Notes under the pieces: generated by a model | The model's input: only the letters and a program-made list of their open reading frames with translations | Databases searched by the model: none | What the model was told of the DNA's origin: nothing | NCBI RefSeq assembly: GCF_000227725.2 | Contig: NZ_MU255056.1 | Location: forward strand, 1,466,747 to 1,530,746 | Direction of reading: 5' to 3' | Origin: Thiorhodospira sibirica ATCC 700588 | GTDB taxonomy: Bacteria > Pseudomonadota > Gammaproteobacteria > Ectothiorhodospirales > Ectothiorhodospiraceae | Length of the DNA stretch: 64,000 nt | Program-made: the position numbers and the translations under genes | Part shown: in pieces, positions 20,446 through 31,681 of the stretch | Numbering within the stretch: the first letter of the stretch is position 1 | How the letters are laid out: every line of letters starts with the position of its first letter

Positions 20446-21276
20446 ATGCGCACCCTTTATTTACAGCGGCACAGCGCCTTCAAGCCCATCGCGCGCGCAC
20501 GCGGTTTCACCCTGGTTGAGCTGATGATCGGCTTGGTGATTGGGCTCATTGTTCTGGGAATTGTCGGCAGCATTTATATGAGCGTATTGGATGGTTCTGG
20601 CTATGCCCTGCGTTCGGCGCGTCTTAATCAGGAGGTGCGGGTGGCCATGAATTTTATGACCGACGACATCCGACGGGCGGGCTTTTGGAGCGAGGCACAG
20701 GCGGGCACACCAGAGAATCAATTACCTGTGAATCCCTTTACCCGCCGTGATGGGGCTGTGCGTGATGTTCATATCCTGAACAGTGGTAATTGCATCCTGT
20801 TTGCTTATGATGCCGATTTTGCGGGCGCGGGCGGGCAGGAGGTTTTTGGGTATCGTCTAAACGGAAATACCGTAGAAATGTTGATGGGGAATGCCAATCC
20901 TCCAACCAATAATTGTGCGCCGCAAAATGCCATCTGGACACCGCTGACAGACAAAACCGCTGTTGTGGTAACGGCGCTAAGCTTTGACACCGTCGGCTCA
21001 CGCTGCTTTAACACCACGCAAAATGTGGGGTGGACTGTCACGGCTGAAATCACTGAACCTGCCTGCTTGGCCGATGAGGCCGATGTGATCGTTGACGATC
21101 TTGATGGAGATGGAACGCCGGATGATTATGTAGAGCCCGATTCAGGCGATCTGATGGTAGAAAGCCGCCTGATCAATATTACCCTGGCGGGCAACCATGC
21201 CAACGATGCAAACCTTCGGGTTAACCTGCAAGAGACGGTCAAGATACGCAATAACCGCATCTTCCTTGTGCCGTGA
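20446..21276 (+). CDS. pilW: type IV pilus assembly protein PilW
   Basis: Minor pilin of 276 residues with prepilin leader ending ARARG|FTLVELMIGLVIGLIVLGIVG. The PilW-type C-terminal domain contains several cysteines and a short acidic stretch DDLDGDGTPDDYVEPDSGD near residue 220, which resembles a calcium-binding loop. The ATG at 20446 follows GGAGA. It lies 27 bases after fimT. PilW works with PilV, PilX and FimU in the tip complex. Confidence 0.87.
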   Translation: MRTLYLQRHSAFKPIARARGFTLVELMIGLVIGLIVLGIVGSIYMSVLDGSGYALRSARLNQEVRVAMNFMTDDIRRAGFWSEAQAGTPENQLPVNPFTRRDGAVRDVHILNSGNCILFAYDADFAGAGGQEVFGYRLNGNTVEMLMGNANPPTNNCAPQNAIWTPLTDKTAVVVTALSFDTVGSRCFNTTQNVGWTVTAEITEPACLADEADVIVDDLDGDGTPDDYVEPDSGDLMVESRLINITLAGNHANDANLRVNLQETVKIRNNRIFLVP

Positions 21277-21361
21277 GCCTCTATGAAAGCGGATTCGCGG
21301 GTTGTTCAGTCAATGCTACCCTCATGTAGATATTAACAAACAGCTACTGGAGGACAATACA

Positions 21362-21604
21362 GTGCCTTATGCAAGTGTACTGATCAAACACTGGGAATCC
21401 AAAGGCGAACGGCGTGGTAGACAGAAAGGTTTGCGAGAAGGTGAAAAAGCGCTGCTTAGACGCCAGTTATTATGCCGTTTTGGTGCCTTGCCTGAAGAAC
21501 TTGAACAACGCCTGGAGCAGGCTGAACCTGAAGAAATCGAATACTGGGCAGAACGTATTCTGGATGCGCCGGATTTAGCCGCTGTCTTTGCGGAAGCGGG
21601 TTAA
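21362..21604 (+). CDS. small DUF4351 protein, free-standing C-terminal domain of an Rpn-family protein
   Basis: An 80-residue protein that matches the C-terminal DUF4351 region of Rpn-family proteins: a charged helix with GERRGRQKGLREGEK, then LLRRQLLCRFGALPEELEQRL and a final ILDAPDLAAVF, as in the full-length protein at 30690-31628. The start is GTG at 21362 with a perfect GGAGG eight bases upstream. The frame is open back to 21302 and upstream residues look like a remnant of a longer Rpn protein, but the nuclease domain is missing. It sits between pilW and pilX, where no such gene is normally found. Family knowledge suggests such C-terminal forms can inhibit the Rpn nuclease; that role here is inference. 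Confidence 0.75.
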   Translation: MPYASVLIKHWESKGERRGRQKGLREGEKALLRRQLLCRFGALPEELEQRLEQAEPEEIEYWAERILDAPDLAAVFAEAG

Positions 21605-21634
21605 GTCGGCGTATCGGCAAGCAGTAAATAAACA

Positions 21635-21658
21635 GCCGAGTGCAACTCGGCGCTCCAT
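21635..21658 (+). repeat. family 2 palindrome
   Basis: GCCGAGT-GCA-ACTCGGC followed by GCTCCAT, 31 bases after the DUF4351 gene. The same arms and the same GCTCCAT tail occur at 31658-31681 beside the full Rpn gene, and a related copy in reverse at 12267-12290. Confidence 0.75.
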
Positions 21659-21687
21659 TGACACCACCCACCGCAGGAGTCCGTATC

Positions 21688-22961
21688 ATGCATAGACACC
21701 CTCCCCCGGTAGCGCTTCGGCCTGAAGGCAGGCCGTCAACGCGATACCGCCATACAAGCCGCCCCCGACCGTTGCCGCATCGCCAACGCGGCGCGATTGC
21801 CCTGTTTATGACCGTGATCATTCTGCTGGCGGTGACGCTCACGGTCATTTTCACCGCCCGTACTGCCTCGATGGAACAGCGCATGTCTGCCAATGAGGTA
21901 CGCGCCAAGCAAGCCGCCAATGCCGCGCAGGCGGGGTTGGAGCGGGCTGTGGCGTATGTGCAGGGCGGTGGCATTGATGTAAATCAATTATTTTTAGCCG
22001 ATTTGGATGCAAATGGAGCTGGAATGATCTATCGCGCACGCTTATGGGATCCTGATCCCAATGCTGCCCCGCCGCAATGCCCTGAAAATCCCGCAGCGAT
22101 GGGGACTAATAATCCAGACAGCACACGCAGCACCTTAATCTACTCCTGCGGTTGGAGTGACGATCTTTCCGCCCGAAAGGTTGCTATGATTCGCACAGAA
22201 GCAGGGCCATCTTTAGGATTTCCACCAACAAATCCTGTTATATCCAAAGGCTCAACATTGGTCAATGGTAATGCAAGGGTATTCAACCTGTTTAATAACC
22301 TAACTGTCTGGGCAGGCGGAGAATTAGATTTAAACGGAAATCCGGGTAATACCTTTGTTCGCGCTCCAGAATACCCTGTGCCTTCATTAGAGAATCTAAC
22401 CGACCTAGATCTATTACCAGGAAAACCTGCTAATTGTCAGGCCACCGGAAAGTACATTTGCACTTCAAATAAATCAGTGATAGGGCATGATATTATCGAT
22501 TATGATCTATCGCTTAGCTCATTATCTGGCCAAGATTTTTTCAGAAATTTTATGGGAATGAATCCGACAGATTATAAAAAAATGTTGCTACTATTATACA
22601 GACAGATACAACTATTAATCTAAGTAATGTCGCGGGACAGGTTGTATGGGTTGATGTTGCAGCAGGAAGCTATGCGGATCTCTCTGGCACGATAGGTTCA
22701 CGGGAGAATCCTGTGGTGTTGGTAATCAATGGAAATGCCCGCGCAACGGGGACAATGAATAAATTTTATGGAGTTCTTTTTATTACAGGAGATTTTAGAA
22801 GCGTTGGAAATCCAGAGTTTTATGGTTCATCAATTATTCAAGGGGAAATTGAGAAGGCAGCTGGAACTCCTTATTTCATCTACGATCCCGTCTCAGCTTC
22901 AAATGCGGGAAGCTTGGGACGCAGAAGTCCTGTTTCTGGTACTTGGCGTGACTGGTTATAG
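21688..22961 (+). pseudogene. pilX: pilX-like gene, frameshifted at a run of seven A
   Basis: Minor pilus assembly protein. The ATG at 21688 follows CAGGAG. The N-terminus is an arginine-rich leader ending HRQRG|AIALFMTVIILLAVTLTVIF, with the SMEQRMSANEVRAKQAANAAQAGLERA helix typical of PilX. A second domain with NGNARVFNLFNN and NGNARATGTMNKFYGVLF repeats (a DUF7305-like beta domain) follows. The frame stops at 22623, but the matching C-terminal half continues in another frame to 22961. The shift is at AAAAAAA (22576-22582): one extra A, or a -1 slip, would join the halves into one protein of about 424 residues. It may be phase-variable, programmed, a sequencing error, or truly broken. Confidence 0.78.
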
Positions 22962-30689: not shown

Positions 30690-30998
30690 TCATGGCGTCT
30701 CGCGAAACACATCATCAAGTGTTTGTGCCTCGACGAATTGCTCACCCCAGCGTTCCAGCTGCTCAATACTGGCCCCGCGCAGCCGCGCTTGCGTCGCTTC
30801 ATCCAGCGTACCGAATCGCTTGTGTAATTGGCGTGTCAGCAGTGCACTCTCGCCTTCGATGCGTCCACGATCAATGCCCTGCTCAATGCCCTGCTCAATG
30901 CCCTGCTCAATGCCCTGCTCAATCCCCTGCTTCAAAAACCGTTGGGCAAAGCCGCTGACGGTGGTGGCATCGTTAGCATAGTGTTGTTGGTAAGTCAT
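30690..30998 (-). CDS. possible intragenic short form (RpnS-like) of the Rpn protein
   Basis: Inside the Rpn gene, in frame, an ATG at 30998 is preceded by GAGGA with seven bases of spacing. It would make a 102-residue protein starting MTYQQHYANDATTVSGFAQ and containing the IEQG repeats and DUF4351. In E. coli, published work describes such intragenic short forms as antitoxins against the Rpn nuclease. Here the signal is sequence only; no expression is known. The free-standing copy at 21362-21604 supports the idea. Confidence 0.55.
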   Translation of the reverse strand: MTYQQHYANDATTVSGFAQRFLKQGIEQGIEQGIEQGIEQGIDRGRIEGESALLTRQLHKRFGTLDEATQARLRGASIEQLERWGEQFVEAQTLDDVFRETP

Positions 30999-31628
30999 AC
31001 GTTCGTCCTCACTTAAATGAGCGTAGATGTCGATAAAGTCGAGGTATTTTAGCTGGCGGTCGCGGTCGGGTTCCAAGCTGAGCAGGCCACGCACCGCGTG
31101 CGCATAGACTTCGACCCGCTGTGACGGCGAATAGCGCATATTGGGCAGATTCAGCCGGGCAATGAGGTTGTCACTGGTATAGTGATCCTCGGCGCGTTGC
31201 CCACGAAAAGCATACGCGAGATAGCGAAACCAGAGATACTCGCCCGCATCACCGCTGAGGGTGAAGGGTTGTGGGCGTGCTTTACCCTGCAGAAAAATCA
31301 CCACGGGTACCAGTCGCTGGATGTTGAGCAACTCGCTGATGTCAACGCAGTAGTGAATCAGGCGGTGCACGGAAAAGCGCCGTGCCTGGGTGTCTTCCTC
31401 AAATAAAAACAGCAGTGCTTCGCGCCGCTGGTCGGGCCATTCCACCAGCAAGGGCGTGTCCAGTTCACGAAAACGCTCGCCAAGGCGTTCCTTGAGCTGT
31501 TCCTCACGCACCGGCAGGATGCGCACTGCGGGATCGCGCAGCCCCTCGGCCTCCTCGGGTGCGAACAGCTCAATGGCTTGTTGGGGATAGTCGAGGATCA
31601 GGTTTTTGAAGTTTTGATCGTGGCTCAT
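30690..31628 (-). CDS. Rpn-family recombination-promoting nuclease / putative transposase
   Basis: 312 residues of the Rpn (PD-(D/E)XK transposase-like) family, linked in E. coli to RecA-independent recombination and phage defence. The N-terminal nuclease domain (about 1-190) contains the expected acidic core (LLVEWPDQRREALLFLFEEDT near 60-80). The C-terminal DUF4351 region (about 255-312) has LLTRQLHKRFGTLDEATQARL and a final EAQTLDDVF. In between is a run of IEQG repeats. The ATG at 31628 gives MSHDQNFKNLILDYPQQAIELF, typical. A second internal start is likely (see 30690-30998). An IS-end remnant and a family 2 repeat lie just upstream. Confidence 0.88.
   Translation of the reverse strand: MSHDQNFKNLILDYPQQAIELFAPEEAEGLRDPAVRILPVREEQLKERLGERFRELDTPLLVEWPDQRREALLFLFEEDTQARRFSVHRLIHYCVDISELLNIQRLVPVVIFLQGKARPQPFTLSGDAGEYLWFRYLAYAFRGQRAEDHYTSDNLIARLNLPNMRYSPSQRVEVYAHAVRGLLSLEPDRDRQLKYLDFIDIYAHLSEDERMTYQQHYANDATTVSGFAQRFLKQGIEQGIEQGIEQGIEQGIDRGRIEGESALLTRQLHKRFGTLDEATQARLRGASIEQLERWGEQFVEAQTLDDVFRETP
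30872..30931 (-). repeat. 12-base tandem repeat (IEQG codons)
   Basis: Four perfect units of CAATGCCCTGCT from 30872 and a fifth that differs by one base. Each unit encodes IEQG. The repeat keeps the frame, so copy number could change without breaking the Rpn protein. Confidence 0.9.
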
Positions 31629-31636
31629 AGGGTGAT

Positions 31637-31681
31637 TTAGAACCTGTTCAAAGACCAGCCGAGTAAAACTCGGCGCTCCAT
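31637..31681 (+). mobile_element. solo IS left end plus family 2 palindrome
   Basis: TTAGAACCTGTTCAAAG at 31637-31653 is identical to the left end of the IS5-type fragment at 46232-46248, including the TTA. No transposase follows. The family 2 hairpin GCCGAGT-AAA-ACTCGGC-GCTCCAT comes right after (31658-31681). This is in the hrpA-rpn spacer. Confidence 0.65.

Follow-up and report, generated by a model that had tools for sequence, protein, structure and literature searches.

In the 64,000-nucleotide stretch of the Thiorhodospira sibirica ATCC 700588 genome that was analysed (the window), a short open reading frame resembling the tail of an Rpn (recombination-promoting nuclease) toxin-antitoxin gene lies between two minor-pilin genes. 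This raises the question whether the frame is a working antitoxin, a part of the pilus, a dead fragment, or the remainder of an Rpn gene in which the antitoxin part is still complete. Experiments have shown that internal starts produce the short protein RpnS, both in E. coli and with a C. difficile gene (PMC10327210). RpnS is an antitoxin and can also be a separate gene, e.g. ypaA. An RpnS inhibits no RpnL except the one that its own sequence encodes; one added four-residue repeat abolishes the inhibition, and the specificity depends on the number of repeats (PMC10327210). The locus contains the following features:

20446-21276, + strand: pilW-like minor pilin gene, the upstream neighbour
21277-21663, + strand: putative inserted segment (Rpn tail and REP) of about 387 bp, with putative edges
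21279-21296, + strand: out-of-frame Rpn debris LYESGF (shuffle test), the first surviving Rpn sequence right behind the pilW stop codon
21349-21353, + strand: Shine-Dalgarno sequence GGAGG, 8 bases 5' of GTG 21362, where related rpn genes have their conserved internal-start signal
21362-21604, + strand: stand-alone RpnS-like cistron (the stub), 80 aa, GTG start, aligning end to end with the RpnS parts of related Rpn genes
21422-21577, + strand: DUF4351 (PF14261) match, residues 21-72 of the 80-aa product (E 2.4e-8, 34.3 bits)
21635-21656, + strand: REP-like palindrome GCCGAGTGCAACTCGGCGCTCC
21690-22958, + strand: pilX-like gene with a PilX_N match, split by a frameshift; the first part ends at 22623 and the rest continues in another frame to 22958

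The open frame of the stub spans 21287-21604, with a first TTG at 21302, the GTG at 21362 and a stop codon ending at 21604. An earlier note on this DNA had described an 80-residue frame from GTG 21362 with GGAGG eight bases upstream, and these coordinates were confirmed. GGAGG is found 5-10 bases upstream of only 36 of the 6798 ATG, GTG and TTG codons in the window (0.5%). The DUF4351 match exceeds the Pfam cut-off of 25 bits, which indicates homology to the Rpn C-terminal domain, and in the alignment the C terminus of the stub falls at the usual end of the family members. Glycine-spaced four-residue repeats (SKGE RRGR QKGL REGE) start some 12 residues downstream of GTG 21362, within the range of 8-20 residues given for RpnS in PMC10327210. 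Searches of NCBIfam and PADLOC gave no match for the stub, and a consensus scan showed no promoter immediately upstream of it.

No nuclease domain lies in frame with the stub. The hexapeptide LYESGF corresponds to a conserved motif of related Rpn proteins, LYERGY/F, which is found there 44 residues ahead of the internal start; the score of LYESGF was equalled by 2 of 3000 shuffles and at one other place in the window. The distance from this motif to the GTG is 83 bases in the stub locus versus about 132 in the relatives, showing that bases were lost and the frame was changed. As LYESGF is out of frame with the stub and bases have been lost, the nuclease part is gone and read-through into the stub is impossible. 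The loss of the nuclease domain proposed in the earlier note thus holds, the upstream remnant being this short out-of-frame motif, and the stub corresponds to the RpnS-like C-terminal end of an Rpn gene that has lost its nuclease, with the GTG at the conserved internal start of the family.

By similarity to L027, the one same-subfamily relative found in the T. sibirica genome, 72 Rpn genes were gathered and reduced to 45 non-redundant genes at 75% identity, and the homologous codon was inspected. It was ATG in 39 genes, GTG in 4 and another codon in 2 (ATG or GTG in 43 of 45), counts that are not independent of phylogeny since the genomes were chosen by homology. Where valine was present at this codon, it was encoded by GTG in 4 of 4 genes. 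The mean Shine-Dalgarno score at the internal start was 5.09, versus 2.54 when synonymous codons were permuted within each gene (sd of the mean 0.31, maximum 3.51). A score of 5 was reached at 89% of the internal-start sites versus 5% of other in-frame ATGs, and GAG made up 72% of the Glu codons at the site versus 43% elsewhere. The Shine-Dalgarno sequence at the RpnS start is conserved beyond the amino-acid requirement. Two further Rpn subfamilies (8 and 4 genes) had the same start pattern with a weaker Shine-Dalgarno excess. The GTG and GGAGG of the stub thus appear to have been taken over from an RpnS start inside an Rpn gene.

Among Rpn remnants in other genomes, the start is retained in some and lost in others, so that the retained start is not by itself proof of selection here. 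The idea that Rpn debris always retains the RpnS start was rejected on the basis of three loci in which it is lost (L011, L135 and L204). Such DUF4351-only debris without a start fits a reading of the stub as a dead pseudogene fragment, its frame being open merely because the event was recent or the stretch is short. Also in line with this reading, the stub is lineage-specific, the adjoining pilX is frameshifted, GC3 is low (0.38 versus 0.58-0.61 in pilW and fimT), and the linker deviates at positions that hardly vary in the family (E8 to I, R9 to K), although these substitutions may equally mark a decayed copy or an unsampled subfamily. Together with the absence of the stub from this operon in 14 relatives, the linker changes and the low GC3 leave the retention after loss of the nuclease, as proposed in the earlier note, only a possibility as far as selection is concerned. 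Against it stand the 80-codon frame, start and Shine-Dalgarno sequence, all intact, and the C terminus at the family end. We consider a dead fragment rather unlikely.

An AlphaFold2 model of the 80-aa product predicted helices at residues 4-40 (long), 45-53, 56-68 and 72-75, with a mean pLDDT of 78 and values below 60 for the first 20 residues. This helix layout is in line with the description of RpnAS and with a three-helix fold that has a long first helix, but among solved structures no match of weight was found by fold or by sequence; the top VIA-align hit (Z 5.2) was a helical stretch of BiP.

The gap between pilW and pilX measures 413 bp here versus roughly 0-80 bp in 14 relatives, none of which has a DUF4351 gene between the two. 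The remaining spacer before pilX is similar to that of the relative L082, which places the right edge of the insert at about 21663. TGA flanks the insert on both sides, as a 3-bp repeat or by chance. No second copy of the inserted DNA was found in the genome; only the REP matched. The palindrome GCCGAGTGCAACTCGGCGCTCC has 124 genome copies with at most one mismatch, and the reversed pattern has 0. Among the genomes searched no congener had the same operon, and a contig scan gave Thioalkalivibrio and one Chromatiales MAG. As far as visible, the insert between pilW and pilX appears to be confined to this lineage. The neighbouring pilX is one frame of about 400-450 aa in relatives; here the PilX of six relatives each match in two frames, with the shift near an A7 run (about 22566-22574). 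A genuine break, slippage, or a homopolymer or sequencing error may account for this split.

From its position and strand, it is plausible that the stub is part of the pilus transcript. Recruitment of the product as a component of the pilus would be suggested by the same two facts, its strand being shared with the minor-pilin genes on either side. However, the stub is absent from the operon in the 14 relatives, no pilin family match for the 80-aa product was found in Pfam, and the adjoining pilX is broken; a pilus function is hardly credible.

Two observations concern the wider surroundings of DUF4351 genes. In three relatives (L077, L078 and L082), DUF4351 genes are also found about 0.7-7 kb from the pilV end of the pilin operon. 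Furthermore, REP palindromes lie in, or at most about 31 bp from, 4 of the 10 DUF4351 loci of this genome (REP positions 31658-31679 and 21635-21656 in the window; L001 and L006). A random 1-kb segment fell within 100 bp of a REP in 1.7% of placements. The comparison is rough, because REPs occur preferentially between genes and the ends of some genes are approximate.

If the stub is translated, a target would be needed for it to act as an antitoxin. The candidate named in the earlier note lies in the same window:

30690-31628, - strand: full-length DUF4351 Rpn-like gene, not the cognate of the stub by the published specificity rules

The C terminus of this protein is indeed related to the stub (44% identity over 66 residues, E 6e-13). 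Its description as a full Rpn depends on the DUF4351 tail, length and layout, as Pfam has no family matching the N-terminal part and the entire protein gives only a weak match to the Rpn model NCBIfam TIGR01784 (E 0.079). The stub has four glycine-spaced repeats versus seven in the 30690-31628 protein; the two thus agree neither in sequence, as a cognate pair would, nor in repeat number. Since published RpnS proteins block their own RpnL only, the identity is 44% and the repeats are fewer, the proposed inhibition of the 30690 Rpn in trans is unlikely. As a separate observation, the 30690-31628 gene and a second Rpn-like gene (L005) are near-identical and differ by one linker repeat (IEQG), the type of variation that is said to set RpnS specificity (PMC10327210).

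No DUF4351 gene found in the genome is closer to the stub than about 44%. Only one further Rpn from the subfamily of the stub turned up in the genome, namely L027 (contig C4, about 1197865-1198950, minus strand), a member of the MPY subfamily. Its nuclease half is interrupted by an in-frame stop, and both its internal RpnS start and its tail are intact. Viral contigs and phages yielded no near relatives of the stub, and a plasmid search yielded distant DUF4351 tails only. The lack of a close DUF4351 gene and the broken nuclease half of L027 make a target in this genome unlikely, and for this reason a possibly translated relic is preferred.

These data also bear on a functional orphan antitoxin, i.e. 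an 80-aa protein that neutralises an Rpn in trans, either the 30690 protein or one borne on a plasmid or phage. The RpnS unit is complete and has a strong ribosome binding site, and E. coli YpaA, listed as a pseudogene in the E. coli record, is made as stand-alone RpnES (PMC10327210). Against this, the narrow specificity of RpnS and the lack of any closer partner in the genome's remaining DUF4351 genes render such a function improbable. A more specific version, in which the host keeps the orphan RpnS and makes it together with the type IV pilus minor pilins, thereby disarming Rpn nucleases on incoming DNA, is speculative and very improbable.

We regard the locus as a truncated Rpn gene whose complete RpnS cistron is probably idle: a relic, perhaps still expressed, that would have no target here. 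In the course of events that we propose, the parent was an Rpn toxin-antitoxin gene that was later truncated. A piece with the Rpn 3' end and a REP palindrome would have been placed between pilW and pilX, and the nuclease-coding part would have been lost, leaving the nested RpnS whole with its Shine-Dalgarno sequence, start codon, helical repeat linker and DUF4351. Translation would yield a protein of 80 residues, helical for the most part, which may pair through its long first helix and would be able to block only the RpnL of its origin. No matching RpnL was found in the genome, and the stub is thus most likely idle.

Stand-alone RpnS genes have already been published (E. coli ypaA; PMC10327210), and the stub adds another. 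It clearly illustrates, in a bacterium other than E. coli, how an Rpn gene can lose its toxin half while its antitoxin cistron stays complete. Across many genomes, DUF4351-type Rpn genes conserve their internal RpnS start at the nucleotide level; this broadens what PMC10327210 found for E. coli and C. difficile and supplies predicted RpnS start sites. A profile of the collected DUF4351 tails scored 33 bits with YpaA and 25 bits with RpnE, and barely matched RpnAS (4 bits).

E. coli YpaA, the stand-alone RpnES, is like the stub an RpnS that lacks a nuclease part and has a start and ribosome binding site of its own, derived from an rpn internal start. However, YpaA lies directly behind its parent rpnE, whereas the stub has no adjacent parent, is situated inside a pilin operon and is known from sequence alone. 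The DUF4351 proteins of other species that PMC10327210 lists as products of separate rpnS genes (Dataset S1) would, like the stub, come from DUF4351-only genes, in a different context. With the RpnS proteins made from within rpn genes (RpnAS, PDB 7TH0; PMC10327210) the stub shares a start just before the four-residue repeat helix, a length of about 50-100 residues and a helical fold, which is predicted in the case of the stub. RpnAS sits within its RpnL gene, whereas the RpnL that once surrounded the stub has been lost.
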